64,000 nt of DNA from a bacterium (GTDB lineage: Bacteria; Ratteibacteria; UBA8468; B48-G9; DSTR01): positions 1-64,000 of the forward strand of contig JAKPFT010000044.1 in assembly GCA_029551285.1 (NCBI GenBank), given 5' to 3'. The notes below the pieces were generated by a model. The model did no database searches and was not told the origin of the DNA. It was given only the letters and a program-made list of their open reading frames with translations. Below are positions 6,468 to 35,006 of the stretch, piece by piece. The stretch's first letter is position 1. The number at the start of each line of letters is the position of its first letter. Position numbers and translations under genes: made by a program.

Positions 6468-7142
6468 TCAATGCCAGTCCACCATCACCACGCCAGGGTA
6501 AGAAGCCAGCCGGTCCACGATTTCATGCCTGTCGTAAGGGCCGCGGTGTCTCAGGGTCACTCGGTAGGTGGTCTTTTTTTCTGAAACTTCCCGGGTGACT
6601 CCCACCGAAAGAATAGTGAAGTTTTCTTTCAAAAGGAATTGTCTCAGGGTAGCAAATTCTGTTTGAGCCTCTGCCAGACTAACCCGGAGATAGTGATACT
6701 CATCCCTGGGAATTTTGCGCTCTACCAGTTTGAGTAAATTCAGGGTAATCAGGGAAAGTCCGGTGGTCAGGAGGGAGAGCAGGTAATGACCGCAGCCCAC
6801 AGTTAGGCTGATTGCCATGGCGGCCCAGAGACAGGCTGCGGTGGTCAGTCCCCGGACCCGCTGGGCATCTTTCACAATAGCGCCGGCCCCGAGGAAACCG
6901 ATACCGGTGACAACTCCGTAAGCAATCCTGGCCGGGTCAATGGAAATTCGCGGGTCAGCCTGTCCGAGGAAAATTTCGTGGATGCGAAGGGAAGTAATCA
7001 TAATTGCGGCCGTACCCAGGCCCACCAGGATTGTGGTCCGCAAGCCGGCTTCGCGTCCGTGACGTTCTCTTTCCCAGCCGATGATGCCGCTGCAGAGACC
7101 AGCCAGAAACAACCTCAGACTCCATTCCCATTCAGAAGTCAT
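6468..7142 (-). CDS. MgtC/SapB family membrane protein
   Basis: A 224-residue protein. The N-terminal half is the MgtC membrane domain, with GIIGWERERHGREAGLRT near residue 20, GFLGAGAIVK near residue 90 and RGLTTAACLWAAMA near 100. The C-terminal half (about 140-224) is a small cytosolic ACT-like domain. Family members are linked to Mg2+ homeostasis and, in pathogens, to control of the ATP synthase; function here is inferred only. Start ATG at 7142 has a GGAAAGAGACAGG leader. It is divergent from rpoN and shares the -10 region between them. Confidence 0.9.
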   Translation of the reverse strand: MTSEWEWSLRLFLAGLCSGIIGWERERHGREAGLRTTILVGLGTAAIMITSLRIHEIFLGQADPRISIDPARIAYGVVTGIGFLGAGAIVKDAQRVRGLTTAACLWAAMAISLTVGCGHYLLSLLTTGLSLITLNLLKLVERKIPRDEYHYLRVSLAEAQTEFATLRQFLLKENFTILSVGVTREVSEKKTTYRVTLRHRGPYDRHEIVDRLASYPGVVMVDWH

Positions 7143-7180
7143 GCCTGTCTCTTTCCGTTAACTGGTTTTTCCTGCCTTTG

Positions 7181-7190
7181 TGGTATTATA
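7181..7190. promoter_or_regulatory. Overlapping divergent -10 elements between mgtC-like gene and rpoN
   Basis: On the plus strand TGG followed by TATTAT (7184-7189) is an extended -10 pointing to rpoN. On the minus strand the same bases read TATAAT (7190-7185) towards the MgtC-like gene. No good -35 box is seen for either. Because the two -10 boxes overlap, the two promoters should compete. Confidence 0.4.
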
Positions 7191-7217
7191 TCACAGAGCA
7201 CAAAGGATGAAAGCAGA

Positions 7218-8456
7218 ATGAAGCCACAACTGAAATTGGGACCGCAGGTCCGGCCGGGGCTGGCCCCGCAGCAGCAACTGTTTTTCCGCCTTCTCTGTTT
7301 ACCGGTCAGCGCCCTCAGGGAATATCTTGAGGAGCAGGCCGAGGAAAATCCTGTTCTGGAAATCACCGGGCCGGAAGAAGTGGTGCTACCTGCCTCCCAG
7401 CCGGAACCGGAGAGGGCTGATTCTTTCCGGGAATTGCTGAAAGAAGAGTTGAGGCTCAAAGTAGATTCTTCCGAGATTGTGGAGGCGGGTGATTATCTGA
7501 TAGAGAATCTGGAGGAAGACGGTTTTCTGAAGTTGTCCCTTGAGGAACTGGCCGAAGCCGGCGGATACCCTGTGAAGAGAATGCGGCAGGCACTGAAAGC
7601 CGTCCAGAGCCTGGAGCCAGCCGGGGTGGCAGCCAGGGACTTCCAGGAACTTTTTCTACTTCAACTGGAAAGAAAAAAGGCCCGCGGGAGTTTACCATAC
7701 GGCATCATTAAACATTGCTGGAAGGAGTTTTGCCAGGGGAATGAGAGGGAGATAGCCAGAAGACTGAAGCGGCCGGTGTCAGAAGTGAAACAGGCACTGC
7801 AGGAACTCCTTTGCCTGCGGGTTCATCCCCTCTCCGGTTATTTGCGGAATAGTTACCATCGGACCCTTCAGGTTGACGGGCTGGTGAGATACCAGGATGG
7901 ACGGCTAAGAGTTTCTCTCTGCGAAAACTACATGCCTGTCCTGTGGGTGAATCCCGAATACCTGAAATTGGCCCGTGACCTGACTGTGCCCGGTCAGCAA
8001 CGCCGCTTCTTAAAGGCGAAAATAAGTGAAGCCGAAACGCTGATTCTTGCAGTGGAGCAGTGGAAGGTAACCCACCAGAGAATTTTTGAAGAAATTGTTT
8101 TTTCCCAGGAGAGTTACTGGCGCGGCGGCATGATCAGGTCTCTGACAGAACAGGAGATAGCCACAAGGACAGGATTTCACGTCTCCACTGTCAGCCGCGC
8201 GGTAGCTGGCAAGTATCTGGCCACTCCGCGTGGGATTGTCCCTGTTCGTCACCTCCTTTCCAGATGTTCCGCCGGTCAGCTCAGTCAGGCGGGCCTGAAG
8301 GAGATGATCCGGCGACTGCTTTCTTCAGAAACAAGACCACTTTCTGACCGTCAGCTTGCTCAGAAGTTAGGAGAAATGGGAGTTTCTGTGGCGGTGCGTA
8401 CCGTGAACAAATACCGGACACGGTTACAGGTGCCCAACTCCTATCAGCGTCAGTAG
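7218..8456 (+). CDS. rpoN: RNA polymerase sigma-54 factor
   Basis: A 412-residue sigma-54. Region I is Gln/Leu-rich (LAPQQQLFFRLLCLPVSALREYL, ending AEENPVLEI). The core-binding domain follows (about 80-230). Then comes the -12 recognition helix-turn-helix with SLTEQEIATRTGFHVSTVSR near residue 310, and finally a C-terminal RpoN box AVRTVNKYR, varied from the usual ARRTVAKYR. It is somewhat shorter than enterobacterial RpoN, with a short acidic region II. The start is the ATG at 7218 after AAAGGATG; the frame stays open upstream but that part is not sigma-54-like. It converges on the hybrid kinase gene. Confidence 0.96.
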   Translation: MKPQLKLGPQVRPGLAPQQQLFFRLLCLPVSALREYLEEQAEENPVLEITGPEEVVLPASQPEPERADSFRELLKEELRLKVDSSEIVEAGDYLIENLEEDGFLKLSLEELAEAGGYPVKRMRQALKAVQSLEPAGVAARDFQELFLLQLERKKARGSLPYGIIKHCWKEFCQGNEREIARRLKRPVSEVKQALQELLCLRVHPLSGYLRNSYHRTLQVDGLVRYQDGRLRVSLCENYMPVLWVNPEYLKLARDLTVPGQQRRFLKAKISEAETLILAVEQWKVTHQRIFEEIVFSQESYWRGGMIRSLTEQEIATRTGFHVSTVSRAVAGKYLATPRGIVPVRHLLSRCSAGQLSQAGLKEMIRRLLSSETRPLSDRQLAQKLGEMGVSVAVRTVNKYRTRLQVPNSYQRQ

Positions 8457-8478: not shown

Positions 8479-9627
8479 TCAGGAAGTATCTACTCCGCTG
8501 TTGGCACGGCCTGCTGGAAGAAAAATGGTGAAGGTTGTGCCCTGGTCCAATCTGGAGGCGACCTCAATTCGTCCCTGATGAAGAGAAATGATTTTCCGGG
8601 TTAGAGAAAGTCCCAGTCCGGTGCCGCCTGTTTTTCCCTGAGTGAAAAAGGGCTGGAAGATATGGGGCAGGTCTTCTTCCGGGATGCCCTTCCCGTTGTC
8701 GGAAAGAGAAGTGACTATCCAGTCATTCTCTGACCGGGATGACACGCTGATTTTTAGAGACCGCTCCGGATGAGAAGCCTGCAAGCTGTTAAGGAAGATG
8801 TTGAGATAAGCCTGGTGAAGCTGGTGAGGGTCGCCGTAAAGAAGCGGTAACTGGCGGGCTAAGTTTAGCTGGAACACAGCGGCCCGACCCATTTTTGATT
8901 GCTGCAAAAACCCGACTATTTTGACCAGAATCTCATTGAGATTGACCGGTTGAAAAGCAGGTTTTTCCCGGCTATAGTCAAGGATATTCCGGGCCAGGAT
9001 TTGACACCGCTGGATTTCTTCTTCAATGGTCTGCAGATATTGCCGGTAGACCGGAGAGGCATGTTCTTCCCCGGCCATTTCCTGAAGGAGTAGCTGGGTA
9101 AATCCCTGGATGACGGTGAGAGGATTGTTAATTTCATGCAGAATTTCCACTGAAAGCAAACCCAGGGTTGACAATTTTTCCATCTCGGTCAGTTTTTCCT
9201 GAAGCTGCCTGTTGAGCGCGGTCAGTTCTTCCGTGAGACGCGCTGCAGCCAGGTGGCTGACTCTTTTTTCCACAGCCTTTCTCACCAACTGCCTCATCTC
9301 TTCTATGTCAAAAGGTTTGGTGAGGAACTCCACGGCGCCAAGATGAATGGCTTTTCTGGCAGCTTCCATGGTTCCGTAACCGGTCAGGATGATCACCGGA
9401 ACTTCCCTGTCAAGGTGACGAAGCTCCTCCAGGGTTTGAAGCCCGTCCTTCTCAGGCATCTTCAGATCAAGAATAATGACCTGGGCAGGTTGCTGGCGAT
9501 GAAGAACCAGCCCCTCATCGCCGGAGCCGGCCAGGACCACTTCGTACTCGTCTTTGAAGAGCATCCGGAGGGATTCTCGTGGTCCTAACTCGTCATCAAT
9601 TACCAGAACACGAAATTTTTCTTCCAT
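8479..9627 (-). CDS. Hybrid protein: N-terminal receiver domain fused to a histidine kinase
   Basis: A 382-residue soluble signalling protein. The receiver domain (1-120) has the acidic pair IDDE, phospho-acceptor Asp in ILDLKMPEKDG and Lys in LTKPF. A short coiled coil (about 125-155) follows. The kinase part has the phospho-His in EILHEINNPL, an N-box (NIFLNSLQ), DNGKGIP and GGTGLGLS, so ATP binding looks intact. Having the receiver in front of the kinase suggests that another kinase controls it. It lies 11 bases downstream of the FadL-type gene, so it is probably expressed from the same sigma-54 promoter. Confidence 0.93.
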   Translation of the reverse strand: MEEKFRVLVIDDELGPRESLRMLFKDEYEVVLAGSGDEGLVLHRQQPAQVIILDLKMPEKDGLQTLEELRHLDREVPVIILTGYGTMEAARKAIHLGAVEFLTKPFDIEEMRQLVRKAVEKRVSHLAAARLTEELTALNRQLQEKLTEMEKLSTLGLLSVEILHEINNPLTVIQGFTQLLLQEMAGEEHASPVYRQYLQTIEEEIQRCQILARNILDYSREKPAFQPVNLNEILVKIVGFLQQSKMGRAAVFQLNLARQLPLLYGDPHQLHQAYLNIFLNSLQASHPERSLKISVSSRSENDWIVTSLSDNGKGIPEEDLPHIFQPFFTQGKTGGTGLGLSLTRKIISLHQGRIEVASRLDQGTTFTIFLPAGRANSGVDTS

Positions 9628-9638: not shown

Positions 9639-10814
9639 TCACCAGAAACGCTGACAGCTGAGGTTCAGGAAATAGGCGCTGGAGCGATACTGCCCGTCAT
9701 AAGGAGCGCCTGATTGTCCATGTCTTTTCTTAAAGAAGGATGAGGTAACGCTGGCTTCCACGGTTGCCCAGGAGAACTTTCTCTGACCACCAAAGGAAAC
9801 GGCCAGACGGTCGGCGTCAGCCAGCGTTGGTTCCAGGGTGGTAGCCGGTACCGGAGTTTGCAGGTAAGCCAGCCCGCCACGCAGTTTCCACCTGTCCTGG
9901 TGCTGATATTCAGTTCCGAGAGAAAAGGTGTAACAATCCCGCCAGTGTCGCGGCTGCGGCTGGCTCAATCCGGCCACGACCAGGTTGATCTGATCCAGAA
10001 CCGAGTAGCCAATCCATTCCACATCTGTTTCTATCTTCCAGGACGGTGTGGGACGGAAGGCAAAGCCTGCACCAGCAAGAGCCGGGAAATTAATGGTGGC
10101 TTCAGCCGGCAGTTCCCCGAAATTCAGCCAGCGCAATTTCCCGTCATAATCAATGGAAAACTTGGCCTTATAGGTCAGACCGAAACTGTAGCGGCTCTGG
10201 CGGTAGAGAAGGCCCAGGGCCGGGGCTGCTGCGTAGCCGGTAACTCTGATTTTGGCTTCACTTTCCACCGGGAAGGGCAGAAGATTATTGATTGCCAGAC
10301 GGCTGCTGTAGACATGAAGTGCCACCCCCAGAGAAAGCTCCGGGCTCAACTTCCAGCAACCAGCAGTGATAACGTCGGCTGTCTGGAGCCCTGCATAATA
10401 AGGGGAGGCATAATTCCACTTTCTTACTGTTTCCTGAGACCATTCCGTACTCTGACCGAAGGGAATGGTTACACCCACTCCCACTCGGAACTTCTCTTTT
10501 CCCAAATCTGAGGAGAGAAAGACGTAGGGCAGCATGATGGGCGAGAAATCTTTTTTATCTGAGAATAAATCTGACCGGTACCAGGTATTACTCAGGATAG
10601 TGTTAACGCCAGCCAGCCACTCTGTTCCTGTAATCTGAATGAGACCGGCCGGGTTATGGGTAATGGCTGAAGGGTCATCACACTGAGCAATAAAGGCTCC
10701 GGCCTGTCCCAGGGCGGCGTTACCCTCAGGTGGATTGCGCATGCCCTGGGCACCAGCCAGGGAAAGGGAAGCCCAGAAGACAAGAACCAACCAGCGCCAG
10801 AAGTATCTGGCCAT
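9639..10814 (-). CDS. Outer membrane protein of the OmpP1/FadL/TodX family
   Basis: A 391-residue predicted beta-barrel for uptake of hydrophobic compounds. It has a signal peptide (MARYFWRWLVLVFWASLSLAGA). The FadL-type start of the mature protein follows: ARN-like GMRNPPEGNAALGQAGAF, then DDPSAITHNPAG near residue 47. Alternating beta-strand pattern continues to an aromatic C-terminus ending in F-W, as barrels require for BAM recognition. Substrate specificity is unknown; TodX-like relatives move aromatics and FadL moves fatty acids. A sigma-54 promoter and a 5' hairpin precede it. It is divergent from the radical SAM gene. Confidence 0.9.
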   Translation of the reverse strand: MARYFWRWLVLVFWASLSLAGAQGMRNPPEGNAALGQAGAFIAQCDDPSAITHNPAGLIQITGTEWLAGVNTILSNTWYRSDLFSDKKDFSPIMLPYVFLSSDLGKEKFRVGVGVTIPFGQSTEWSQETVRKWNYASPYYAGLQTADVITAGCWKLSPELSLGVALHVYSSRLAINNLLPFPVESEAKIRVTGYAAAPALGLLYRQSRYSFGLTYKAKFSIDYDGKLRWLNFGELPAEATINFPALAGAGFAFRPTPSWKIETDVEWIGYSVLDQINLVVAGLSQPQPRHWRDCYTFSLGTEYQHQDRWKLRGGLAYLQTPVPATTLEPTLADADRLAVSFGGQRKFSWATVEASVTSSFFKKRHGQSGAPYDGQYRSSAYFLNLSCQRFW

Positions 10815-10865: not shown

Positions 10866-10880
10866 GCAAATTTCATGCCA
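10866..10880 (-). promoter_or_regulatory. Sigma-54 (-24/-12) promoter of the FadL-type operon
   Basis: On the minus strand TGGCATG-AAAT-TTGCTT is present: GG at 10879-10878 and GC at 10867-10866, exactly 10 bases apart, matching the sigma-54 consensus TGGCAYR-N4-TTGCW. The start is predicted 12 bases downstream at about 10854. No competing sigma-70 boxes of quality are seen on this strand before the gene. Confidence 0.75.
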
Positions 10881-11038: not shown

Positions 11039-12670
11039 ATGGGTGCAAGATGTCTTTTGCTCTCTCTGGCCGGGACGCCAAAGATACTTTCAGACTTTGT
11101 GCCTGATAACGGACTGGCCAGTCTGGCTGCCTGTCTTCTTAAGGCGGGCCATGAAGTAATAATTCGCGATTACAACAATCCTGATTTGTTTGACCGTATC
11201 TACCCTGCCGCCTGCAAAAGGTTTCTGAATTCCTTCGCCGAGAAAGTCTTTCTCTACCAGCGGCGACCAGCCTTCAATGACCTGGTTCTGCTCAGAGCAG
11301 TGGAACAGGTTCTTGCCTTAAGGAAAAGGATGTTTCTTCAGGAAGTGAAAGAGGAGTTGCTCCAGCAGGTGGAGACAGCAGGGATTAACCTTGTGGGGAT
11401 AAAACTCTGGGCCGGCGAAGGTTTTCACTGGTCTGTAGAAATCGCCGGCTTTTTGAAAAAGAAAGTCCCCGGGTTGTGGGTTTTTGGTGGTGGGCCGCAG
11501 GTGGACATTTTTGGACATCACCTTTTCTCGGTCTGTCCATTTTTTGACGGCCTCTGTTACGGCGAAGGTGAGGAAACAATTGTCCAGCTGGCCAACGTGG
11601 CTCTAGGAAGAACAAACTTGTCCGAAGTGTTCAATATCTACTACCGGAAAGACGGGCAGGTCGTTAAAAATCCTGCCAGAGAAATTCAGGACCTCAACCA
11701 GCTTCCGATCCCTGTTTATGAAGAAGCGGTCTACCAGGAAATTCACAAGAAAATCAAGATGTTAGTAATTGATGAAAGTCGCGGGTGCCCCAACCGGTGT
11801 TTTTTTTGTATTCATCCGGTTAAAAGCGGACGCCGCCGCGAGAAAAGTCCGGACCGGGTGCTGAAAGAGATGGAGCAGGCCAGGCAGGCTTATGGGGTTT
11901 CCCTTTTCCGGTTTGCCGGTTCCAGCACTCCCCCGGTTCTGATGACTGAAGTAGCCCGGCGGCTGGTGGAGCGAGGTCTAAGAGTTCGCTATTCCAGTTT
12001 CGGTAGCCTCAGAGAATTCCAGGGTCAGGAAGATTTTTCCCTCTGGAAAGATTCAGGGTGTCAGTCCATTTTCTTCGGGGTGGAATCAGCCAGCGAGACT
12101 ATCCTGAGACTGGCGATGAATCGCCGGATAAAGAAAGAGACGATGGCCCATATTCTGAAGAAGTGCCAGAGCGCCGGTATTTTTACGGTGGTCAGTATCA
12201 TCCACCCGGCACCGATGGAAACCCGGGAAAGCCGAAGAGAAACCATGGAATTCCTGAAGGATGTGCGGCCAGATTCTGTTCTGGTTCAGTTTCCCGGCAT
12301 CTATCCTGGTACGCCCTGGTTTGAGCAGGCAGAACGTTTCGGTTTTTCCCTGGACAGAGAAAAGTATCCCCGGCAGGTGATGGGCTATCAAATAAAATCG
12401 CTTTTCCCCCCTCGTTACTGGCGGCCCTTACCCTACCTCATTAATGGAATGCCTTTTCGTGTTTTTGCCAGAGAAACCGAACTTTTCCAGGAAGAACTGA
12501 ACCGCTCCGGTATCCTGACAGGTGTTTCCGATGAAGCCTATCTCCTTTTTCAGGCAGCCAGCCCTGGCAGCCTGGAGGCTTTCATCCGGAATAATCGCTG
12601 CTGGTTCTATGCTGGAGATGCCAGGCGTCTGACCGAGGAGATTGACACAATTAACAGGGGCAGTGGATGA
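11039..12670 (+). CDS. B12-binding-type radical SAM protein next to a ketosynthase
   Basis: A 543-residue enzyme. The N-terminal 200 residues have the layout of a cobalamin-binding domain (opening strand CLLLSLAG, FVPDNGLASLAACL, VGIKLWAG, FGGGPQVD), though no DxHxxG motif is evident, so cobalamin binding may be lost. The radical SAM core starts near residue 245 with the cluster motif RGCPNRCFFC. SAM-site features SIFFGVESAS and a C-terminal domain follow. Substrate is unknown. No ribosome-binding site precedes the ATG. Its stop overlaps the ketosynthase start (ATGA), so the two act together in all likelihood. B12-type radical SAM enzymes methylate, cyclise or rearrange unactivated carbons. 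Confidence 0.88.
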   Translation: MGARCLLLSLAGTPKILSDFVPDNGLASLAACLLKAGHEVIIRDYNNPDLFDRIYPAACKRFLNSFAEKVFLYQRRPAFNDLVLLRAVEQVLALRKRMFLQEVKEELLQQVETAGINLVGIKLWAGEGFHWSVEIAGFLKKKVPGLWVFGGGPQVDIFGHHLFSVCPFFDGLCYGEGEETIVQLANVALGRTNLSEVFNIYYRKDGQVVKNPAREIQDLNQLPIPVYEEAVYQEIHKKIKMLVIDESRGCPNRCFFCIHPVKSGRRREKSPDRVLKEMEQARQAYGVSLFRFAGSSTPPVLMTEVARRLVERGLRVRYSSFGSLREFQGQEDFSLWKDSGCQSIFFGVESASETILRLAMNRRIKKETMAHILKKCQSAGIFTVVSIIHPAPMETRESRRETMEFLKDVRPDSVLVQFPGIYPGTPWFEQAERFGFSLDREKYPRQVMGYQIKSLFPPRYWRPLPYLINGMPFRVFARETELFQEELNRSGILTGVSDEAYLLFQAASPGSLEAFIRNNRCWFYAGDARRLTEEIDTINRGSG

Positions 12671-13896
12671 AGAAAAGTCGTGTGGTAATCACCGGACTGG
12701 GAGTGGTGGCGCCAAACGGGATAGGAAGAGATATCTTCTGGCAGGCGCTGACTTCAGGCAGGAGCGGTATCAGCACCATTAGTACCTTTGACACCTGCAA
12801 TTTTCCTACCAGGATTGCCGGGCAGGTTTCAGACTTTGTCCCGGAAAGGTATATGGAGGGTAAAAAGGCTAAGAGACTTTCCCGAACCAGTCAGATGGCG
12901 GTAGCCAGTGCCAGACTGGCTCTAAATGACGCCAGACTTGACACCGCTGCTCTCCGGGGGGACAGGGTGGCTGTTATTTTCGGAGTAAGTACCAGCGCCA
13001 TGGATTTGATTGAGAAGCAGCATCGTCACTTTCTGGACAGGGGAGTGAAGGCGGTGCTGCCCTTCAGTATTGTGGCGGCCACGCCTCATACCACCTCGGG
13101 AGAAGTTACGGCGGAACTCGGTCTGGAAGGGTCGCTGTGTACCCTGGCTACGGGCTGTGCGGCTGGGCTGGACAGTATCGGTCTTGGCTTTACCAGGATT
13201 TCTCGCGGGGAGGCAACTGTGGTGGTGGCAGGTGGTGCCGATGCGCCCATTACCCCGTTGATTATGGCCGGTCTGTGCGCCACCCGAATCATGTCGGTCA
13301 GGAACGATTGTCCGGAGAAGGCCAGTCGGCCGTTTGACCGCTTACGAGACGGAGGAGTTCTGGCGGAAGGGGGTTCAGCCGTTGTTCTGGAGGAGTACGG
13401 TCACGCCCTTTCCCGGGGAGTGAAACCCTATGCTGAGGTGGTTGGCTACGCTGATGCGGCTGAAATTGATCTGATGTCACCAGGCCGTGGACTGGAAAGG
13501 GCGATGAGCAAAGCATTGCAGCAGGCCGGACTTTCCCCTGAGACCGTTGGGCACATTTCCGCCCATGCGCCCTCTGACCCGTTCCTGGACAGAATTGAGA
13601 CCGCGGCGATAAAGAAGGTTTTCGGCAAGCGGGCCTATCGGATTCCGATTACCTCAATTAAGTCTATGATTGGTAACCCCTTTGCAGCCATCGGTGGTTT
13701 CCAGGTAGCGGCCGCAGCTCTCACCTTTATTAGAGAGATCATTCCCCCAACGATTAATTACGAGCACTTTGACCCTGAATGTGACCTTGACTATACGCCC
13801 AATCACTCCAGGCTTGCTCAGGTGGAATATATTCTCATCAATGCCCACGGCTTTGGCGGCGGAAATTCTACGCTGATTCTGAAAAGGTGCGACTGA
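12667..13896 (+). CDS. FabF-like beta-ketoacyl synthase with altered active site
   Basis: A 409-residue thiolase-fold ketosynthase. The nucleophile is Cys164 in ATGCAAG and the first His is His300 in SAHAPSD. Lys332 in SIKSM is kept. The normal second His of the GHxxGAAG motif is replaced by Asn337 (SMIGNPFAAIGG). The C-terminal gate motif HGFGGGN is present. A Cys-His-Asn set occurs in KAS III and chalcone synthases but is unusual in the FabF branch. No acyl carrier protein, reductase or acyltransferase is nearby. Cotranscribed with the radical SAM gene. Likely a specialised lipid or polyketide step rather than bulk fatty acid synthesis. Confidence 0.9.
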   Translation: MKKSRVVITGLGVVAPNGIGRDIFWQALTSGRSGISTISTFDTCNFPTRIAGQVSDFVPERYMEGKKAKRLSRTSQMAVASARLALNDARLDTAALRGDRVAVIFGVSTSAMDLIEKQHRHFLDRGVKAVLPFSIVAATPHTTSGEVTAELGLEGSLCTLATGCAAGLDSIGLGFTRISRGEATVVVAGGADAPITPLIMAGLCATRIMSVRNDCPEKASRPFDRLRDGGVLAEGGSAVVLEEYGHALSRGVKPYAEVVGYADAAEIDLMSPGRGLERAMSKALQQAGLSPETVGHISAHAPSDPFLDRIETAAIKKVFGKRAYRIPITSIKSMIGNPFAAIGGFQVAAAALTFIREIIPPTINYEHFDPECDLDYTPNHSRLAQVEYILINAHGFGGGNSTLILKRCD

Positions 13897-13899: not shown

Positions 13900-16371
13900 A
13901 TGAGTTACTTCACCCTCTCCATGCTGCTGGCCGGAGTCATCAACCTGATTTTCGGAATTATTGTCTTCAAGAGAAATCGGCGCAGATTACCCAACCGTAT
14001 CTTTCCTCTGTTTTCCTTTTTTCTGGCCTGCTGGTGCTGGGTGGTGGCTGGCATCATGCTGGCTTCTGACCTCAGCGTGGCCGGAATACTGGTCCGGGCA
14101 GCCTTCGGGGTAGGCGCCTTTCTACCGTCTCATTTTTACCTTTTCTCCCTGGTTCTTACCATGAGGGAAAACCAGCTCAGCCGTGCCAGCCGGATTAAGG
14201 CAGCTGGTGTTTATCTGTTCTGTGCCCTGCTGGCCGCCAGCTGTTTTCATCCTGCCTTTGTGGAAAAGATTTATTTTCAGCCACTGGCACCCTTACCTGG
14301 GCCGGAGGTGATTTATAACCGGGGGCTCTTCATAGTCTATGTTGGCTCTGTGACAGGGCTGATGGCCTACTCTCTGTTTCTGCTGTTGTTTAGGTTACGA
14401 CAACTTTCCGGCGTCCGGCGGCAGGAGGCCCAGTATGTTTTTTTCGGGGTACTGGCCGGGACGCTCTTTACTTTGCTGACCTCGCTGCTACCACCGCTTT
14501 TAGGCAGCACCTTACCCACCCGGTTTGCCCCTTTTTCCTCAGTGGTGATGACCGCAATAATTAGTTACGCCATCGCCAAGTATCGCATTATGGATATCCA
14601 GCTCGTGTTTGAAGTGACCACCGCCTACGTTCTTTCCAGCATTATTCTCATCTTCATCTATCTGGTGGCGGTTCTGGCTACGAATAAGCTTCTGGCAGTT
14701 TTTACTACCTCTTCCCAGTGGAAGAATCTTCCTTTGCTGGTAGGAGCCTTTATTGTCGCCGTAGTTTTTGTGCCGTTGCGTTCCAGGCTCCAGATACTTC
14801 TGCGGGGATTAATCTTCAAGGATCAGTACGAGGTCAGTACGGTTTCCAGGAAACTAACGCAGCTTTTGAGCCAGCCGGTGAAATCCGGGGAACTTCTGGA
14901 AGAGGTGGTTAAACTTCTCAACTCCTCGCTGGGACTGGTTCCCCGGGCTGGTCTGGTTCTTCGTCAGAGTCGGCAGGACCTGATCGTTTTTCCTTTTCCG
15001 GCTTGCTGGCAGGTGCGCTTCAAAGAGGAGGGACCGTTCTGGCCGTGGTTTGAGCGCCATCGGGAAGCGGTGGTCCGGGAAGAGCTCCTGCGGCTATCCG
15101 AAAATGAGCAGGCCCAGCAAGTGGCCAGAGAGCTGACTGACCTGGAAGCAGAGGCTGCGGCACCGGTGCCCATCCAGGGAGATGTCGCTGGCGTTTTGGT
15201 GGTCGGACAGAAGGTTTCTGGAGCGGCGTTTGGGGAGAATGACCGTCTGGTGCTGGAGCACCTTGGCCTTCAGTTAGGACTGGCTCTGGAAACCACGGGT
15301 CTTTATCAGGAACTGTTCCGCGTGAACCTGTATCTTGACAGTCTTCTGGATAACTCGCCTGCGGGGGTGGTCGGAGTAGATGCGAACGGCCGGGTGACTG
15401 TTCTGAACCGGGAGGCAGAAAGGCTTACCGGCCTTGTCCGCAAAGAGGTAATCGGACAGCCGTATTCGGTTTTGCCTGGCCCATTAGTTTCAGCGGTGGA
15501 GAGCAGTTTGAAGAAAAAGCAGGAGATTCGTAATGAGGAAGTAAGTTTCCTTCCCAGACCTTCGGACCTGGCTTTTTCGGCGATTCTGCAGACCTCGTCT
15601 TTTTACGATAGAAAGGGCCAGCCTCTTGGCGTCCAGGTAATCCTTCAGGACGTTACCCAGGTACGGGTTTTGCAGGAAGACCTGCGGCGGAAAGACAAAC
15701 TGGCCTCGTTCGGAGTGATGGCCGCCCGGATCGCGCACGAAATCAAAAATCCCCTGGTGGCCATTCGTACCCTGGCCCAGCTTTTGCCCTCTCGGTATCA
15801 GGATAGCGAATTCCGGAATACATTTGCTAACTTGGCTTCCCGGGAAGTGGAAAGGATTAACAGCCTGGTGGAAGAAATCCTGAGTTTTGCCAGTCCGCGG
15901 CAATTATACCCGCGGGAAGTGAATCTGATAGAATTAATAGAGGCAACCCTGACCATGCTAACAGTTCAGACCGAGGGCCGGAAGATCACCGTCCACCGTT
16001 CCTGGCCTTCGGAAAGGGTGATGATTGAAGTTGACGAAGGAAAAATGCGCCAGGCCTTGTTGAACATCTTCCTTAACAGCCGTGATGCCATGGGAGAAGA
16101 AGGAAATTTGATGGTCCAGGTTCAGGAGTCTTCCGAAATGGTCACGGTACTCATCCGGGATGATGGCTGCGGTATGAATCCGGAAGTCCTGAAACGGGTC
16201 TTTGATCCCTTTTATACCACCAAACCGCGCGGCACTGGACTGGGGCTGCCGATAGTGGCCAGCATTGTTGATGAACATGGGGGGACTATTCGGATGGAAA
16301 GCCAGGAAAACAGGGGTACCCTGGTGATTCTCCAGATACCCAGATCGCAGCGTTTCCGGAGGAAAACATGA
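13900..16371 (+). CDS. Membrane histidine kinase (7TM-GAF-PAS-HisKA-HATPase)
   Basis: An 823-residue sensor. Order: seven or eight membrane helices over the first 250 or so residues (7TM sensor type), a cytosolic GAF-like domain (about 300-460), a PAS domain (about 475-590, VGVDANGRVTVLNREAERLTG), a dimerisation domain with phospho-His613 in AHEIKNPLVAI, and an intact ATP domain (NIFLNSRDAM, DDGCGM, GTGLGLPI). The layout resembles PrsK-type kinases that partner NtrC-family regulators. It starts 3 bases after the ketosynthase and its end overlaps the next kinase by 4 bases. Confidence 0.93.
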   Translation: MSYFTLSMLLAGVINLIFGIIVFKRNRRRLPNRIFPLFSFFLACWCWVVAGIMLASDLSVAGILVRAAFGVGAFLPSHFYLFSLVLTMRENQLSRASRIKAAGVYLFCALLAASCFHPAFVEKIYFQPLAPLPGPEVIYNRGLFIVYVGSVTGLMAYSLFLLLFRLRQLSGVRRQEAQYVFFGVLAGTLFTLLTSLLPPLLGSTLPTRFAPFSSVVMTAIISYAIAKYRIMDIQLVFEVTTAYVLSSIILIFIYLVAVLATNKLLAVFTTSSQWKNLPLLVGAFIVAVVFVPLRSRLQILLRGLIFKDQYEVSTVSRKLTQLLSQPVKSGELLEEVVKLLNSSLGLVPRAGLVLRQSRQDLIVFPFPACWQVRFKEEGPFWPWFERHREAVVREELLRLSENEQAQQVARELTDLEAEAAAPVPIQGDVAGVLVVGQKVSGAAFGENDRLVLEHLGLQLGLALETTGLYQELFRVNLYLDSLLDNSPAGVVGVDANGRVTVLNREAERLTGLVRKEVIGQPYSVLPGPLVSAVESSLKKKQEIRNEEVSFLPRPSDLAFSAILQTSSFYDRKGQPLGVQVILQDVTQVRVLQEDLRRKDKLASFGVMAARIAHEIKNPLVAIRTLAQLLPSRYQDSEFRNTFANLASREVERINSLVEEILSFASPRQLYPREVNLIELIEATLTMLTVQTEGRKITVHRSWPSERVMIEVDEGKMRQALLNIFLNSRDAMGEEGNLMVQVQESSEMVTVLIRDDGCGMNPEVLKRVFDPFYTTKPRGTGLGLPIVASIVDEHGGTIRMESQENRGTLVILQIPRSQRFRRKT

Positions 16372-18320
16372 GTTATTTGCTAATTATTACCGAAGACAGG
16401 GCTGTCGGGTACTCCCTGCGCATGATTCTGAAAGACTCTTTTCTGGTGGAAGAGTCATCCTTCGGAGAAGCATCGGCAGTGGTGGCTTCCAGACGTCCGG
16501 ACGTCATCTTCCTGGACGACCGGTCCCGGGGAGACAGTCTGGAAGTATTAGCAAGCCTGCTCCGGCAGGAGCCTTCATTGACGATTATCAGCCTGGTACC
16601 AAGTTTGACTTGCGGCGCGAGCGTTTTTCTGGAGCACGGAGCTTTTGACCTTCTGGAAAAACCTTTTACGGCAGAGCAAGTAAAACAGGTAGTTTCAAGG
16701 GCTCTGGAAAGAGAAAGGTTGCTGGCGGAGAACCGACAACTGAAAAGTATGGGGCGAGAAGAGCCCAGAAGGGATCATCTGGCCAGAGAAAATGAGATTC
16801 GCACTCACGACTTCTACAAGCGGCTGCTGCAGACGATAAGTGAAACCCTCGGCCGGCCGGAACAGCTGCCCCGGGCGGTGGTGGTTACCCTGCGTCAGCA
16901 TTTTCGGTTCAACCCGATTGCCTTTTTCACCAGCCAGTCTGGAATTTTTAAAGTCGTAGCTTCCTGTGGTCTTGATGAAAATTTAATCAGGCAGTTACAA
17001 GTGCCTTCATCCCATAGTCTAATCAGCTGGTTTCTGAAAAAAAGGAGTCTGCTTCGGACCGCGCGGGAAGCGAATCTGAGCGGGGAAATTTATTCTCTCT
17101 CGGAATTGCTCGGCGGCCAGTTTTTCTTTCCACTGCTCACCACCCGGGGAAGCCTATCCGGCTTTCTCTCCCTCGGGGGGAAACTGACCGGCGAGGAAAC
17201 CACGAGGGAGGAATTGGGGCTGCTCAGTTTAGTCTGCGATTACCTGACCGCTATCCAGGAGAATCTCCAGCTCACTCAGGAAATAAATCTTCAGGCCGGA
17301 TACCAGGAGGCAATTCTGGGAAGTATCCCCACAGGCATTGTGGCCGTTGATATGCGGGGCCGGGTCACCATTATGAACCGTTCCGCAGAAAGGATTACAG
17401 GGGTCAGAGCCGAGGAGGTTCAGGGACAGTCGGTGGAAACACTGGGCTCGCAAATCGCTGATTTTTTGAGACGGGCTTTGCGGGGGGATGAAGTTTCCCG
17501 AATTGAGCTTACTTATGTGCCCACAAAAGCTGTCTTGGGCATCAGCACCCGAACCCTGCAACACGGGGAAGAATTTCAGGGAGCCGTGGCTGCCTTCCAG
17601 GATCTGACGGAGGTCAAGAAGATGGACCGGGAGCGGGCTGAAGTGGAACGAAATCGCTACTGGAATACAGTGGCGGCTCGGCTTTCACATGAATTGAAAA
17701 ATCCGCTGGTGGCCATCAAGACATTTGCCCAGATGTTGCCGCTGAAATATGAGGACAGTGAGTTCCGGTCAGGCTTTGCGCAGATTGTTCAGCAGGAGAT
17801 AGCCAAACTTAACCGGATCATTGAGGGCATCAACCGGCTGGCGGAGCCGCTGAATTTAACTGTGGCTCCGGTGCATCTGCTGGAGCTCCTGAACAGTGTT
17901 GGTCAGGGAATTGCAGAGTGTCCTGCAGGGAAACTGGAGGTGAAGTGCGCCGAACCGTTTGATGACCTGATGCTCGCGGATGCTTTACGGCTAAGAGAGG
18001 CTTTTGGGTATATCCTGCAGTTTTGCTGGAGGGATAACCGAGGGGAAAAACCGGTACTTTGCTCCGTGAAGGCTGACAATCAGACCGTCACGGTGGAGTA
18101 TCGTGAGGAAGGGTCCACCCTGGCTCTTCCGTCAGGAGAGGAGATTTTTCTGCCCTTCGTTTCCACTCTGGAAAGCAACCTGTCCATCGGGCTGGTTCTC
18201 GCGAAGAAAATCGTGGAGGCTCATGAAGGAAGAATGGAACTGGTTACCGAAGGAAACAGCAGGAAATTTGTGATAACCCTATCCTTAAAACGGGATGAGA
18301 AAAATCTTAGTGGTGGATGA
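16368..18320 (+). CDS. Receiver-GAF-PAS-histidine kinase-like protein with decayed ATP domain
   Basis: A 650-residue soluble protein. Receiver domain at 1-120 (Asp in VIFLDDRSRG, Lys in EKPF), GAF-like region about 150-305, PAS about 315-425, and a dimerisation domain with His441 in SHELKNPLVAI. The downstream ATP domain lacks the N-box Asn (REAFGYILQF) and has no DxGxG or GxGLG loop (REEGSTLA, LSIGLVLA). It should not bind ATP normally. Its dimerisation region is strikingly like that of the upstream kinase, so it probably arose by duplication. It may act as a phospho-relay partner or inhibitor. It overlaps the regulator gene by 26 bases. Confidence 0.9.
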   Translation: MSYLLIITEDRAVGYSLRMILKDSFLVEESSFGEASAVVASRRPDVIFLDDRSRGDSLEVLASLLRQEPSLTIISLVPSLTCGASVFLEHGAFDLLEKPFTAEQVKQVVSRALERERLLAENRQLKSMGREEPRRDHLARENEIRTHDFYKRLLQTISETLGRPEQLPRAVVVTLRQHFRFNPIAFFTSQSGIFKVVASCGLDENLIRQLQVPSSHSLISWFLKKRSLLRTAREANLSGEIYSLSELLGGQFFFPLLTTRGSLSGFLSLGGKLTGEETTREELGLLSLVCDYLTAIQENLQLTQEINLQAGYQEAILGSIPTGIVAVDMRGRVTIMNRSAERITGVRAEEVQGQSVETLGSQIADFLRRALRGDEVSRIELTYVPTKAVLGISTRTLQHGEEFQGAVAAFQDLTEVKKMDRERAEVERNRYWNTVAARLSHELKNPLVAIKTFAQMLPLKYEDSEFRSGFAQIVQQEIAKLNRIIEGINRLAEPLNLTVAPVHLLELLNSVGQGIAECPAGKLEVKCAEPFDDLMLADALRLREAFGYILQFCWRDNRGEKPVLCSVKADNQTVTVEYREEGSTLALPSGEEIFLPFVSTLESNLSIGLVLAKKIVEAHEGRMELVTEGNSRKFVITLSLKRDEKNLSGG

Positions 18321-19638
18321 TGAGACCGGAGTGAGAACCTCGTTGAAGTTTGCGCTTCAGGACACTTACTGTGTCCAGATGGTCTCTTCCGGTCAGGCGG
18401 CCATCTCTCAGGTGAACCAGGAGATGCCGGATGCGGTCATCCTTGACCTGGTTTTGCCGGATACCGGGGGACTGGAAGTCTTAAAAAGGTTGCGCGAAGT
18501 CAATGAGGAGTTACCGGTAATTATTCTCACCGCCCACAGCAGTATTCGCTCGGCGGTGGAGGCGATGCGTCTGGGCGCTACTGATTACCTAACCAAACCG
18601 TTTGATGTGGAAGAGATGAAACTGATTCTCGCCCGGGTAATCAAGGAAAAAAAGTTGAAAGAGCGCGTGGGGCTCCTCCAAAAAGAGGTGGATGAAGAAT
18701 ATCCGGCAGAAAATGTGGTCTTCAAAAGTCAGGCTATGGCGCAGGTCATGGCGGTGGCCAAACAGGTGGCGGCCACTGAAGCCACGGTTCTTCTTCTTGG
18801 TCCGAGTGGCTGTGGTAAAGAATTAATCGCCCGGGCCATCCACGCCTTTAGCGGCAGGCGTGAAGAACCATTCGTGCCGATACACTGTGCGGCTATTCCG
18901 GAAAGTTTGTTTGAGAGTGAAATCTTCGGTTATGAAAAGGGAGCTTTTACCAACGCTTTTCAGCGTAAACCCGGGAAGATTGAGCTGGCCGGGTCCGGCA
19001 CGCTTTTCCTTGACGAAGTCAGCGAAATACCGCCGGCGGTCCAGGTAAAACTGCTGCGCTTTCTTCAGGAAAAAGAATTTTCCCGTCTGGGCGGTAACGA
19101 AATTTTGAAAAGCCAGGCGAGGCTTCTGGCGGCTTCAGCCCGGGACCTTAAGAAACAGGTGGCTGAGGGCAATTTCCGGGAAGACCTTTATTACCGGTTG
19201 TGCGTTGTGCCACTGGAAATTCTGCCGCTGAACCAGCGCCGGGAGGACATTGAAGTTCTCCTTGATTTCTATCTGGAGAAGTTTCGCCGCCGGCTGGGTG
19301 CCCGCACCAGAGATTTTACCAGGGAAGCGCGGCAGCAACTGGTAGCCTATGACTGGCCAGGGAATGTCCGGGAACTGAAAAACATTGTGGAAAGGATGCT
19401 GGTTCTTTACGGTCAGCGGGAGGAGATTGGCAGTGAGTGTTTGCCAGGCGAAATCCGCGGTCAGAGCTGCCCCGAAGTTGGCCTGGAACAGGCCGTGGAA
19501 TCTTTTGAAAAGAGGCTCATCTTAGAGGCACTGGAACGCTGTAACTGGAATCAAAACCAGGCCGCGCGGTTGCTGAAAACAACCCGGCGCGTTATCCGGT
19601 ACAAAGCGGAAAAATACGGACTGAAAAAAACAAAATGA
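18295..19638 (+). CDS. NtrC-family sigma-54 activator (receiver-AAA+-Fis)
   Basis: A 447-residue response regulator. Receiver (1-120): VVDDE, Asp in ILDLVLPDTGG, Lys in TKPF. AAA+ domain: Walker A GPSGCGKE near residue 166, Walker B GTLFLDEVSE near 238, and the sigma-54 contact loop written GAFTNA instead of GAFTGA. C-terminal Fis-type helix-turn-helix around 405-440 (NQNQAARLLKTTRRVIRYK). It is the natural activator for the sigma-54 promoter at 10866-10880. It is encoded in the same operon as the kinases and rpoN lies about 10 kb away. GAFTNA occurs in other activators and is presumably functional. Confidence 0.95.
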   Translation: MRKILVVDDETGVRTSLKFALQDTYCVQMVSSGQAAISQVNQEMPDAVILDLVLPDTGGLEVLKRLREVNEELPVIILTAHSSIRSAVEAMRLGATDYLTKPFDVEEMKLILARVIKEKKLKERVGLLQKEVDEEYPAENVVFKSQAMAQVMAVAKQVAATEATVLLLGPSGCGKELIARAIHAFSGRREEPFVPIHCAAIPESLFESEIFGYEKGAFTNAFQRKPGKIELAGSGTLFLDEVSEIPPAVQVKLLRFLQEKEFSRLGGNEILKSQARLLAASARDLKKQVAEGNFREDLYYRLCVVPLEILPLNQRREDIEVLLDFYLEKFRRRLGARTRDFTREARQQLVAYDWPGNVRELKNIVERMLVLYGQREEIGSECLPGEIRGQSCPEVGLEQAVESFEKRLILEALERCNWNQNQAARLLKTTRRVIRYKAEKYGLKKTK

Positions 19639-21077
19639 GGAAACAACCAAGAATTCTGGTGATTGATGATGACGAGGGAATTCGCCGGCTTTACCAGGCT
19701 GTTCTTGGGAGGAAAAATTACCGGGTAACCCTGGCCAGCAGCACGGAAGAAGCTCTGGCGGTCCTTTCCCGGGAAAAGTTTGACCTGGTTCTTCTGGATT
19801 TGCAGATGCCCGGCAGTGACGGGTTTGTGTTTCTTGACCGGTTACAGCAATATGAGCAGCCGCCAGCCGTGGTTGTCTCCTCCGGCCTGGCCACAGTGGA
19901 AAATGCTGTGAAGGCGGTGCGGCTGGGTGCGAAAGATTTTATCGTCAAGCCCTTCAAGGTGGAGCAACTTCTCCAGACAATTGAGCGAACCTTAACCATT
20001 GAGGCTCTGACGGCGGAGCTAAGCGACCTGCAAATGGTGCGTTCGGTGCTGGAATTAAGTACTGCGGTCCTGTCCGTAACCGAAGTGGAGCCGCTGCTGG
20101 AGCGGCTGGCTGACCTTCTCTGGAATCTTTTCAAACCGGAAGCCATCTTTTTCTTTATCCGCAGCAGCGAAACGGCCAATTTTATTCTGCGTAAGTACCG
20201 ACCCCAGCCTCAACCTGAACGGATAAGTCTTTTTCTGAGCGAAGAAGAAGTTAAAAAAGAGCTGGGTGGGGAAAGAGTCGGGATGAAGGAACTTTCCGGG
20301 AAAAGGCAACTTCTGGCGCTGTTGCAGGGACAGGGGCGGGAGCTGGGAGTGGTGCGTTTTGACTTCCCGGCGGAGCGGCCTGGCCTGACCGAGAAAGAGC
20401 AAAGTTTCCTTTCTGGTTTGCTGGTCCAGTCAGGTATCGCTCTGGAAAACGCCATGCTTTTTCAGGCACTTAACGAGGCCTATCTGAAAACAATTCGTTC
20501 TCTGGTTAATTCCCTTGAGGCTCGTGACGCCTATACCCGGGGTCATTCCGAGCAGGTAGCCTACTATGCGGTACTGATCGGTCGGCAGATGAAACTCTCC
20601 GAGAGGCAGTTAGAAATTCTTCGCAACATAGGTTATCTGCACGACTTAGGAAAACTGGGAATTAAAGATGCCATCCTGTTGAAAGAGGGTAAGTTGACCC
20701 CGGAGGAATATCAAATTATCCGGGAACACCCGCGGCTTACCGCCAGGATTCTGGAACCGTTAACTCTGGAGGAGGGAGAGTTAGAAGCCTGTCTTTATCA
20801 CCACGAGTGGTTCAATGGTAGAGGCTATCCCGCCGGTTTGAAGGAGGACCAGATACCATTGATGGCCAGAATCATTGCTGTCGCAGACGCTTACAGCGCG
20901 ATGACTTCAAATCGTCCCTACAGCCGCGTGCGCACCAGGGAAGAGGCGCTGGCAGAGTTGAAACGCTGTCGGGGAAGCCAGTTTGATGCCTCGGTGGTGG
21001 ATGCTTTTGTTTCTCTGATGGAAGGGAACGAACCGCCCCCGACAAAATTTGCGCCGAAAGAGATATCCGGTCTATAA
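19635..21077 (+). CDS. Response regulator with HD-GYP domain (c-di-GMP phosphodiesterase)
   Basis: A 480-residue protein. The receiver domain (1-120) has IDDDE, Asp in LLDLQMPGSDG and Lys in VKPF. A GAF-like region (about 145-280) follows, then an HD-GYP domain (about 290-460) with RGHSEQVA, YLHDLGKLGI, HHEWFNGRGYP and IIAVADAYSAMTSNRPY. All metal-binding His/Asp motifs are present, so c-di-GMP hydrolysis is likely. It overlaps the NtrC-type gene by 4 bases, so it ends the operon and links it to c-di-GMP signalling. Its stop codon lies within the -10 box of the mreB promoter. Confidence 0.94.
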   Translation: MRKQPRILVIDDDEGIRRLYQAVLGRKNYRVTLASSTEEALAVLSREKFDLVLLDLQMPGSDGFVFLDRLQQYEQPPAVVVSSGLATVENAVKAVRLGAKDFIVKPFKVEQLLQTIERTLTIEALTAELSDLQMVRSVLELSTAVLSVTEVEPLLERLADLLWNLFKPEAIFFFIRSSETANFILRKYRPQPQPERISLFLSEEEVKKELGGERVGMKELSGKRQLLALLQGQGRELGVVRFDFPAERPGLTEKEQSFLSGLLVQSGIALENAMLFQALNEAYLKTIRSLVNSLEARDAYTRGHSEQVAYYAVLIGRQMKLSERQLEILRNIGYLHDLGKLGIKDAILLKEGKLTPEEYQIIREHPRLTARILEPLTLEEGELEACLYHHEWFNGRGYPAGLKEDQIPLMARIIAVADAYSAMTSNRPYSRVRTREEALAELKRCRGSQFDASVVDAFVSLMEGNEPPPTKFAPKEISGL

Positions 21078-21126: not shown

Positions 21127-22152
21127 ATGAAGGACTTCTTATCCTTTTTTTCCAATGACCTGGGAATCGACCTGGGTACCGCCAACACCTGTGTGTATGT
21201 CCGGCGTAAGGGCGTGGTGCTGATGGAGCCTTCCATTGTGGCGATGAACGTTAGTAGCAAAGAAGTGGTGGCTGTGGGTCATGAAGCCAAGCGGATGATC
21301 GGCAAGACCCCGGCTAACATTGTCGCTATGAAACCGATGAAGGATGGGGTGATTGCTGATTTTGAAGCCTGCGAAGCGATGTTACGATATTTCATCAATA
21401 AGGTCAAAACCCAGAAGCACCGTTTTCTGTTGCCGCCCCGTATGGTTATTGCCATTCCTTCAGGGATTACCAGTGTGGAAAGAAGGGCTGTCAGGGAAAC
21501 GGCTTTAAGGGCCGGTGCCAGGTCGGTCCGGCTGGTAGAAGAACCGATGGCTTCGGCCATCGGTGTGGGTTTGCCAGTGGGCGAGCCCTGTGGCAGTTTT
21601 ATAATTGATATCGGGGGCGGAACTATGGAAATGGCGGTCATTTCGCTCGGCGGGATTGTCCTGACCAAGAGTCTGCGTGTCGCCGGCAATGAAATGGATG
21701 AAGCCATTATTGATTATCTCAAGAAGAAGTACAATCTTCTGATTGGCGAACGCACCGCTGAGGAGATTAAGATAGAAATTGGTTCTGCCTATCCGCTGGA
21801 GGAGGAGTTGACAGTGGAGGTTAACGGACGAGACCTGGTGGAAGGGTTGCCCAAAATGGTGCGGATTAACTCCGAGGAAATCAGAGAGGCTTTGCGGGAA
21901 ACATTGAATACTATCGTTAACGCGGTCAGAGACATCCTGGAAGAAACCCCGCCGGAGTTATCCAGCGACCTCATTGAGCGAGGCGTAGTTCTGGCCGGGG
22001 GGGGAGCGCTCCTTCGGTCTCTGGACAAACTCATTTCCCAGGAAACCAAGTTGCCGGTAAAGGTAGCGGAAGACCCTTTAACATCGGTGGTTAGAGGTAC
22101 CGGGAAGATGCTGGAAGAGGATAAATACCTGCGTCTTTTCCCGCACGAGTGA
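21127..22152 (+). CDS. mreB: Rod-shape determining actin homologue MreB
   Basis: A 341-residue bacterial actin that guides lateral cell wall synthesis. Phosphate-1 loop GIDLGTANTCVYV near residue 13, phosphate-2 IIDIGGGTMEMAV near residue 160, and adenosine motif GVVLAGGGALL near residue 288. Normal family length. It heads the mreBCD-mrdA-rodA group, so the organism should be rod-shaped or otherwise elongating. RBS GGAG lies 8 bases before the ATG. Confidence 0.98.
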   Translation: MKDFLSFFSNDLGIDLGTANTCVYVRRKGVVLMEPSIVAMNVSSKEVVAVGHEAKRMIGKTPANIVAMKPMKDGVIADFEACEAMLRYFINKVKTQKHRFLLPPRMVIAIPSGITSVERRAVRETALRAGARSVRLVEEPMASAIGVGLPVGEPCGSFIIDIGGGTMEMAVISLGGIVLTKSLRVAGNEMDEAIIDYLKKKYNLLIGERTAEEIKIEIGSAYPLEEELTVEVNGRDLVEGLPKMVRINSEEIREALRETLNTIVNAVRDILEETPPELSSDLIERGVVLAGGGALLRSLDKLISQETKLPVKVAEDPLTSVVRGTGKMLEEDKYLRLFPHE

Positions 22153-22235
22153 AAACTGAAGTCTCTCCGGTGGAAGGCGACCAGCCACAAAAAAATCATC
22201 CAGATAAATTGCCATCAGGAAATTTGTGAAAGACC

Positions 22236-22913
22236 ATGATCTGGCGTTTCCGGCGCGAACTCCTCTTGTGTTTGCTATTAGTTGTGTGCTTACTGATTCT
22301 CAGACGTGGTCAGTGGCAGAACTCATTTTTCTCGCTGAGGGGGATGAACGGCTCCGAGATTCACCTGAATTCTGAAGAACTGCTCCGGGAGAACCGGAGG
22401 CTGCGCCGGTTGCTCCATCTTCAGGAAAAGAAACTTTCACCTTTTTCGTCTGTGGTCACGGCTGAGGTGGTTAAGATTCAACCATCTGTCTGGCCTGGTC
22501 AACTGCTGGTGAATAAGGGTAGCCGTGACGGGGTCAAGCCGAACATGGTAGTGGTTTCTCCCGAAGGAAGTCTGATCGGGCGGGTAATTGAAACCGGGGA
22601 AACGACGGCTACGGTTTTCACCCTCTTTCATCCCTCCACCAAAATCAGTGTTATGGTTCAGAGTACCCGGGAAATCGGGGTGCTGGAAGGTGCTTCTCTG
22701 CCTTATCTGCTGGTACGCTATCTACCCCGGGAAAGCCACGTGCAACCGGGTGACACGGTAATTACCTCCGGTCTGAGTGATTACTACCCGAAGGGACTGG
22801 TGGTGGGCAGAATTTATCGTGCGGTGACGGAAAAGAATCAGTTTTTTCTTGTGGCCTGGGTAAAGCCAGAAGCTGGTTTTTCTCAGCTTGACGAGGTGCT
22901 CCTTGCCCGTTAG
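22236..22913 (+). CDS. mreC: Rod-shape determining protein MreC
   Basis: A 225-residue bitopic protein. One membrane helix (about residues 8-22) is followed by a short coiled coil with LLRENRRLRRLL near 48-60. Two periplasmic beta-barrel domains come next (LLVNKGSRDGVKPNMVV, GDTVITSGLSDYYPKGLVVG). It is shorter than E. coli MreC because of a shorter C-terminus. The start has only a weak ribosome site. It links MreB to the wall synthases. Confidence 0.92.
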   Translation: MIWRFRRELLLCLLLVVCLLILRRGQWQNSFFSLRGMNGSEIHLNSEELLRENRRLRRLLHLQEKKLSPFSSVVTAEVVKIQPSVWPGQLLVNKGSRDGVKPNMVVVSPEGSLIGRVIETGETTATVFTLFHPSTKISVMVQSTREIGVLEGASLPYLLVRYLPRESHVQPGDTVITSGLSDYYPKGLVVGRIYRAVTEKNQFFLVAWVKPEAGFSQLDEVLLAR

Positions 22914-34834: not shown

Positions 34835-34840
34835 ACATGT

Positions 34841-35006
34841 GGCTGTTCCGTGCGTGGGGAGCAAGAACCCTTGAGCCAACACCCATGCAAAGGGAGCCAA
34901 GGCTGGCAGGGCCGGAGTTCGCTACGGCAAACACCGAAACTGTCCAGGGCGGCACCCACCTGAAACTTCAGGTCTCAAAGGGTGATATCCCGGCGGCGGA
35001 ACGGCC
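34841..35006 (+). ncRNA. ssrS: 6S RNA
   Basis: A 166-base RNA that mimics an open promoter and sequesters the housekeeping RNA polymerase holoenzyme. The terminal stem GGCTGTTCCG (34841-34850) pairs with CGGAACGGCC (34997-35006), with one G-U. The 5' part holds GAGCAAGAACCCTTGAGCC and the 3' part CACCTGAAACTTCAGG, then a CAAAGGGTGATAT stretch and GCGGCGGAAC. These match the arrangement of known 6S RNAs around a large central bubble. It has its own promoter and is followed within 23 bases by tRNA-Tyr. Confidence 0.85.

Follow-up and report, generated by a model that had tools for sequence, protein, structure and literature searches.

The window, the 64,000-nucleotide stretch of DNA that was analysed, carries a ketosynthase gene (KS; positions 12667 to 13896, + strand) among genes for sensing and regulation. 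The open reading frame begins with ATG and encodes 409 amino acids. Its start is overlapped by 4 bp by the gene for a B12-binding radical SAM protein (11039 to 12670, + strand), recognized by Pfam and by searches of genomes of the window's class, and 4 bp after KS begins the gene for a 7TM (HisKA_7TM)-GAF-PAS-HisKA-HATPase sensor kinase (13900 to 16371, + strand), assigned by Pfam, a dedicated HMM and a structural model. Three further genes, all overlapping, lie 3' of the 7TM kinase. Domain searches identify their products as a second kinase-like protein with a weak receiver, PAS and HisKA (16368 to 18320, + strand), an NtrC-type response regulator with receiver, sigma-54 activator and Fis HTH domains (18295 to 19638, + strand) and a receiver-HD-GYP response regulator (19635 to 21077, + strand). 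The second kinase gave no HATPase_c match at E≤0.001 and, judging from its sequence, may be degenerate. The signalling operon then runs on, from 21127 to 26169, into mreB and other genes for cell shape, ending with one of the FtsW/RodA family; in relatives (locus L058), too, MreB is found 3' of the cassette. Farther along, at 34837 to 35221, are a 6S RNA and then tRNA-Tyr and tRNA-Gly.

Divergent from the radical SAM-KS operon is the gene for a FadL/OMPP1 outer-membrane channel (9639 to 10814, - strand; Pfam), the only copy in the genome. A pattern search places a sigma-54-type promoter, TGGCAT-N5-TTGC, 51 bp before its start (10866 to 10880, - strand). Domain searches show that the FadL gene is followed by a receiver-histidine kinase protein (8479 to 9627, - strand) and, on the + strand, by the sigma-54 factor RpoN (6978 to 8456), whose called GTG start is probably too far upstream.

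A preliminary description of this DNA, made from its letters alone, had singled out KS for its active site and for a lack of any acyl carrier protein (ACP) or reductase nearby. No ACP is present in the 64-kb window, and the two ACPs of the genome are on other contigs, one of them beside FabF. There is, however, a FabG-like reductase 14 kb downstream, outside the operon and scoring below the FabG cut-off. That description, whose interpretation our results support in part, did not mention the 7TM histidine kinase or the two-component and sigma-54 genes.

A KAS II-fold ketosynthase with an altered active site

The only Pfam matches of KS are PF00109 and PF02801, both of the KAS I/II type. It is 40-41% identical to FabF structures, and comparison with the Listeria enzyme (3o04) gave a Z score of 58.9 (3.3 Å over 399 residues), which identifies a KAS II fold. 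With E. coli and Listeria FabF it shares the full-length fold, the Cys nucleophile, the first His, the Lys and the GFGG loop. Alignment to E. coli FabF sets C164, H300, K332 and N337 against C163, H303, K335 and H340, and the bases at 13675 to 13677 (+ strand) read AAC, the codon for Asn337, just as had been reported; KS thus lacks the Cys-His-His triad of FabF at its second His. Unlike these enzymes, it also carries E349Q, T305P, T307D and F398H, is encoded outside a fab cluster and is paired with a 7TM sensor. The ordinary FabF of the same genome is encoded on another contig in a fab cluster, with ACP and a true FabG beside it. KS does not reach the cut-off of the NCBIfam fabF equivalog TIGR03150 (406.5 bits vs 493.75) but passes that of the looser PRK07314 subfamily (393.3 vs 387). 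Since such KSs pass this loose NCBI model, annotation probably labels them as routine FabF. We conclude that KS is a KAS II enzyme by fold, but not a FabF by its triad or by the equivalog cut-off.

The thiolase-fold enzymes KAS III, chalcone synthase and OleA use a Cys-His-Asn triad, to which the three residues of KS are equivalent in position. The KAS III-like solution first suggested for KS therefore holds for the types of catalytic residue; it does not extend to sequence and fold, which are those of KAS II, and the Pfam search of the window protein found no KAS III domain. KS is not a KAS III, and the likeness is confined to a convergent set of residues.

Elsewhere, the protein retains most of the basic residues that make up the ACP-docking patch (K66, K69, R70, K128 and R207). 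In KS orthologues of the class, AH[A/G]PSD replaces the FabF sequence AHGTST, and its Pro-x-Asp takes the place of the threonines that bind pantetheine.

Asn337 is fixed in the class and variable beyond it

A whole-protein search, free of motif bias, of 35 genomes of the window's class recovered 22 near-full-length KS orthologues (44-76% identity). All 22 have Asn at position 337, which rules out a sequencing error, chance or a lone mutation. C164, H300, K332, G336, N337 and P338 are invariant columns in these sequences, and Gln replaces Glu349 in the class. Ordinary FabF proteins keep the His (9/9 in the window's class, where they neighbor the KS orthologues in the tree, and 13/13 from other genomes). 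Asn, whose commonness among ordinary FabF proteins the preliminary description had named as a possible objection, was seen in none of them.

We extended the comparison with a GTDB scan covering some 85,000 species genomes, which yielded 62 loci, most of them in one main clade (L056-L105). Among 49 main-clade KSs, the position of H340 is Asn in 47 and Ser in 2, a count that is partly by construction because the scan patterns contained the GN motif or AH[AG]PSD. The other changes recur with it: E349 to Q in 48, T305 to P in 48, T307 to D in 43 and F398 to H in 29, with His303 kept in 46. This 49-member set omits main-clade member L078; L115, an unrelated match, was likewise left out of the residue comparison, and L105 is a fragment. 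The clade-wide H340N, E349Q, T305P and T307D, set beside the His that ordinary FabF retains, make the proposed change of reaction or substrate likely.

Besides the window's class, two sets are free of motif bias. In one Bacillota class, 18 of 97 genomes have a KS orthologue: position 340 is Asn in 15 and Ser in 3, the first His (303) is kept in 13/18 and replaced by Ser, Cys or Asn in 5/18, and Gln349 is present in 18/18. In the Bacillaceae, where 16 of 193 genomes have one, position 340 is Asn in 7 and His in 9, the first His is Gln in 16/16, and both Q349 and H398 are found in 16/16. Asn at position 340 is therefore not strict beyond the window's class; taken together, the two sets indicate that the residues for decarboxylation are lost in various ways, with Cys, Lys and Gln349 unchanged throughout. 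For FabB, von Wettstein-Knowles is said to have found in 2006 that a His298Gln mutant is dead for decarboxylation.

In a tree of ketosynthases, the Asn clade forms one group (support 95/90). The Bacillaceae KSs form a separate long branch of this unrooted tree. Rooting among FabF, FabB and other KSs would make them sister to the Asn clade, but they may be of independent origin.

A compensating histidine, which the preliminary description had also raised, has one candidate. His394 (codon 13846 to 13848, + strand, by direct reading and alignment) occupies the FabF Phe398 position and could serve as a base in place of the second His. F398 immediately precedes the GFGG loop (FabF 399-402), a contributor to the oxyanion hole and the acyl gate (PMC7138838). 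A His is found there in 29/49 main-clade members, 6/18 of the Bacillota set and 16/16 Bacillaceae, a distribution that makes a substitute-base role of His394 across the whole family a weak proposition. Its absence from many members leaves it no more than a candidate.

KS is paired with a 7TM sensor gene across phyla

The kinase adjoining KS scores 48.9 bits for HisKA_7TM (PF16927; cut-off 28.6), also matches HisKA and HATPase_c, and holds the only HisKA_7TM domain in the genome. A histidine kinase gene lies directly 3' of KS in 50 of the 62 scan loci and also, when the correct frame is read, in L086. In the remaining 11, two loci (L056 and L084) end at KS, six break off at a contig end within the following gene, two from Spirochaetes have an AAA+/Fis regulator in place of the kinase, and L115 is an unrelated scan match without a kinase neighbor. 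Within the main clade, an HMM of the 7TM domain finds the partner adjoining KS in 45 of 50 loci, among them the six contig-cut genes. Most of the loci later scanned with this HMM had also served to build it; the six contig-cut genes had not, and all of them match it (6/6). The partner of L086 is recovered via L123, and that of L097 (Spirochaetes) by profile comparison, which relates its seven-helix domain to that of the clade (hhalign, 92% probability). The remainder are L056 and L084, at contig edges, and L103, which has an N run.

The pair spans Omnitrophota/Ratteibacteria, Kiritimatiellota, Verrucomicrobiota, Armatimonadota and Bacillota, and the more distant homologues from Bacillaceae and Spirochaetes have the same arrangement. 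In the bias-free sets, the 7TM gene is directly 3' of KS in 18/18 loci of the Bacillota class and in 16/16 of the Bacillaceae, where its output is a kinase in 9 and a GGDEF domain in 7. By comparison, none of 13 ordinary FabF loci has a 7TM neighbor. Distances between KSs correlate with those between their kinases (r=0.874 over 39 loci), a value reached in 0 of 2000 permutations. An autoinducer synthase gene would be expected to adjoin, and to be inherited with, the gene for a multi-TM sensor, and the KS-7TM gene pair does both. Its conservation is clear. If KS acts on the sensor, the partner domain should stay constant while the output domain changes, and the output does vary among histidine kinase, GGDEF and AAA+ activator. 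Kinase-type and GGDEF-type 7TM domains of the Bacillaceae are one family (99.9% probability). Sequence HMMs of the clade 7TM domain did not match the Bacillaceae domain, and one profile-profile comparison between the two gave 69% probability (E 4.4e-5).

Modelled with AlphaFold from 38 sequences (pLDDT 92), the 7TM domain has seven helices and an inter-helix hairpin in its first 228 residues. All 50 PDB entries listed as matches to the model are GPCRs, the best being 6kpc, a cannabinoid receptor (Z 18.0; 3.2 Å over 215 residues). Foldseek matched the model to GPCRs with probability 1.00 but weak E-values (best 1.6e-3), and the predicted likeness is for this reason one of fold only, from which neither homology nor a ligand follows.

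Neighboring enzymes vary, and FadL often has a sigma-54 site

Of the 35 class genomes, the 22 with a near-full-length KS, and only these, have the radical SAM gene; it is missing from the other 13, among them G024, whose only trace of KS is a fragment at a contig end. The radical SAM partner named in the preliminary description is thus confirmed by adjacency and co-occurrence within the class; it is, however, specific to certain lineages, and elsewhere there are other methyltransferases or none. A B12-radical SAM protein is encoded beside KS in the window's relatives and in Poribacteria, a class I SAM methyltransferase in 13 Bacillota-type loci and an O-methyltransferase (PF00891) in one Verrucomicrobium. 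No finishing enzyme is conserved beside KS in the Bacillaceae, where the conserved pair consists of KS and the 7TM gene.

Other features were seen at single loci. Two loci from Armatimonadetes (L081:6858-7790 and L082:6841-7737) encode a double-zinc-ribbon/TPR protein, not a methyltransferase, 5' of KS. At L063:6361-7998 the radical SAM gene is broken by one TAG, and FadL at this locus is split into two ORFs, by decay or assembly error. In a Bacillota locus, L083:4571-7141 encodes a SelA-like PLP domain fused to PAS-GGDEF-HD, a fusion that looks unusual; it lies directly 5' of the methyltransferase, KS and 7TM kinase genes, and related genes occur in some other loci. The same locus encodes a 647-aa protein (L083:2610-4550; cluster C7) that is kept in 7 Bacillota KS loci and has no Pfam or NCBIfam match.

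FadL is found near KS in 16 other loci, all from diderm lineages. A sigma-54 site (at most one mismatch in ten positions) precedes it in the window and in 11 of these 16 (Omnitrophota-like, Kiritimatiellota and Verrucomicrobiota), and shuffled sequences reach this in 0-2 of 200 cases; the sites in L062, L063, L067, L068 and L074 belong to one family and are not independent. No such site was found in L064, L066, L071, L073 and L076. In several loci the FadL start given by the longest ORF lies past the site, so the true start would be further in if the promoter is real. Across the whole genome, the pattern has 16 matches against 7 in a reversed control, and no clear sigma-54 regulon beyond FadL can be read from this search.

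Discussion

The pairing of this ketosynthase with a 7TM sensor points to production or presentation of a lipid signal, not to synthesis of ordinary fatty acids. By analogy with CqsA/CqsS, we propose that KS is an acyl-signal enzyme with its own membrane receptor, not a FabF of fatty-acid elongation, and we put the probability of this reading at about 0.5. An acyl chain would probably pass from acyl-ACP onto Cys164, and the altered decarboxylation/condensation site (His300, Asn337 and perhaps His394) would convert it to a small acyl-derived molecule. This product would be finished by a methyltransferase that varies with lineage, in the window the B12-radical SAM protein, and would be sensed by the GPCR-like 7TM domain of the neighboring kinase. 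A phosphorelay from the kinase would then act through NtrC and sigma-54 on expression of FadL, the predicted outer-membrane channel for hydrophobic molecules. FadL takes up signals. The first and last links of this scheme rest on sequence, and the middle ones we infer. In its most specific form, with KS making a methylated acyl ligand for a GPCR-fold receptor whose outputs are a kinase, a diguanylate cyclase or a sigma-54 activator, the proposal is tentative, somewhat short of an even chance.

Several observations weigh against the signal enzyme. H394 is absent in many members, there is no ACP near KS, and within the class the gene order could have been kept by descent alone. In the Bacillaceae KSs the first His is gone and no finishing enzyme is encoded next to them, and for these proteins a non-catalytic acyl sensor fits better; their branch is long, and its tie to the main clade uncertain. 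Applied to the whole family, this would make KS a sensor subunit: Cys164 would be acylated by acyl-ACP, and the acylated protein would dock on the 7TM protein and report fatty-acid supply, with nothing released. The invariance of Cys and Lys while both decarboxylation histidines (His303 and His340) erode, the Bacillaceae pair reduced to just KS and the 7TM gene, and the largely intact ACP-docking patch of the window protein are all consistent with such a role. We nevertheless regard it as unlikely for the family at large, as three kinds of methyltransferase are found beside KS, FadL accompanies it in diderm lineages, and His303 is retained in 46/49 main-clade members. The signal synthase and the acyl sensor share one core, namely that KS serves the 7TM sensor.

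Known pairs of autoinducer synthase and multi-TM kinase include CqsA-CqsS and LqsA-LqsS, whose synthases are PLP enzymes. There, as in the window if KS has the analogous role, the gene for a small-molecule synthase adjoins that for a multi-helix membrane histidine kinase. The window protein differs in being a ketosynthase and not a PLP-dependent acyltransferase of the CqsA/LqsA family, and its partners also have GGDEF or AAA+ outputs. RpfF-RpfC-RpfG is a fatty-acid signal system in which RpfF has a crotonase fold. It comprises a lipid-signal enzyme, a sensor kinase and an HD-GYP regulator, the latter two also present in the window, but KS does not have a crotonase fold and the sensor domains differ.

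A further possibility is that KS and the radical SAM protein act together in the synthesis of an atypical membrane lipid, comparable to ladderanes, and that the two-component genes merely regulate envelope biosynthesis. PMC2649909 discusses pairs of B12-radical SAM proteins and unusual KSs for ladderane lipids and describes FabF paralogues, from ladderane clusters and from R. baltica, that have altered active sites and are encoded near radical SAM genes; in one of them, R. baltica NP_866153, position 333 (FabB numbering) is Asn. Among the paralogues listed there, those with Asn differ from KS in having Glu or Ser for the Cys, and they occur among fatty-acid genes with no 7TM sensor. The operon of the window's class also precedes mreB. 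Even so, a membrane lipid is a decidedly improbable product: ACP, dehydratase and other fab genes were not found in the operon, and outside the class the links to radical SAM and mreB are lost while the KS-7TM pair stays with changed outputs. A ladderane-like pathway as the sole context of KS is rejected on the same ground, since outside the class KS keeps the 7TM gene and not the radical SAM gene. We dismiss as highly improbable a FabF paralogue of near-normal activity that uses Asn as KAS III does and has an incidental neighborhood, despite its closeness to FabF structures (40-41% identity, Z about 59), the retention of His300 and Lys332 and the PRK07314 score, because the genome has a separate true FabF in its fab cluster, H340, E349, T305 and T307 have changed together, and a 7TM neighbor in several phyla is not incidental.

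A full-text search, which covered few subscription journals, found no published account of a ketosynthase-7TM kinase pair. Unusual active sites in FabF paralogues encoded close to radical SAM genes had been noted before, in ladderane clusters (PMC2649909). For the enzyme family, our results mean that a KAS II scaffold is able to drop its second His as a fixed trait of a clade. If KS is indeed a signal enzyme, it would represent a new class of signal synthase and provide a ligand route for HisKA_7TM receptors, a testable bacterial counterpart of the lipid mediators that act on GPCR-like receptors. KS marks a conserved sensory module in lineages known mostly from metagenomes.
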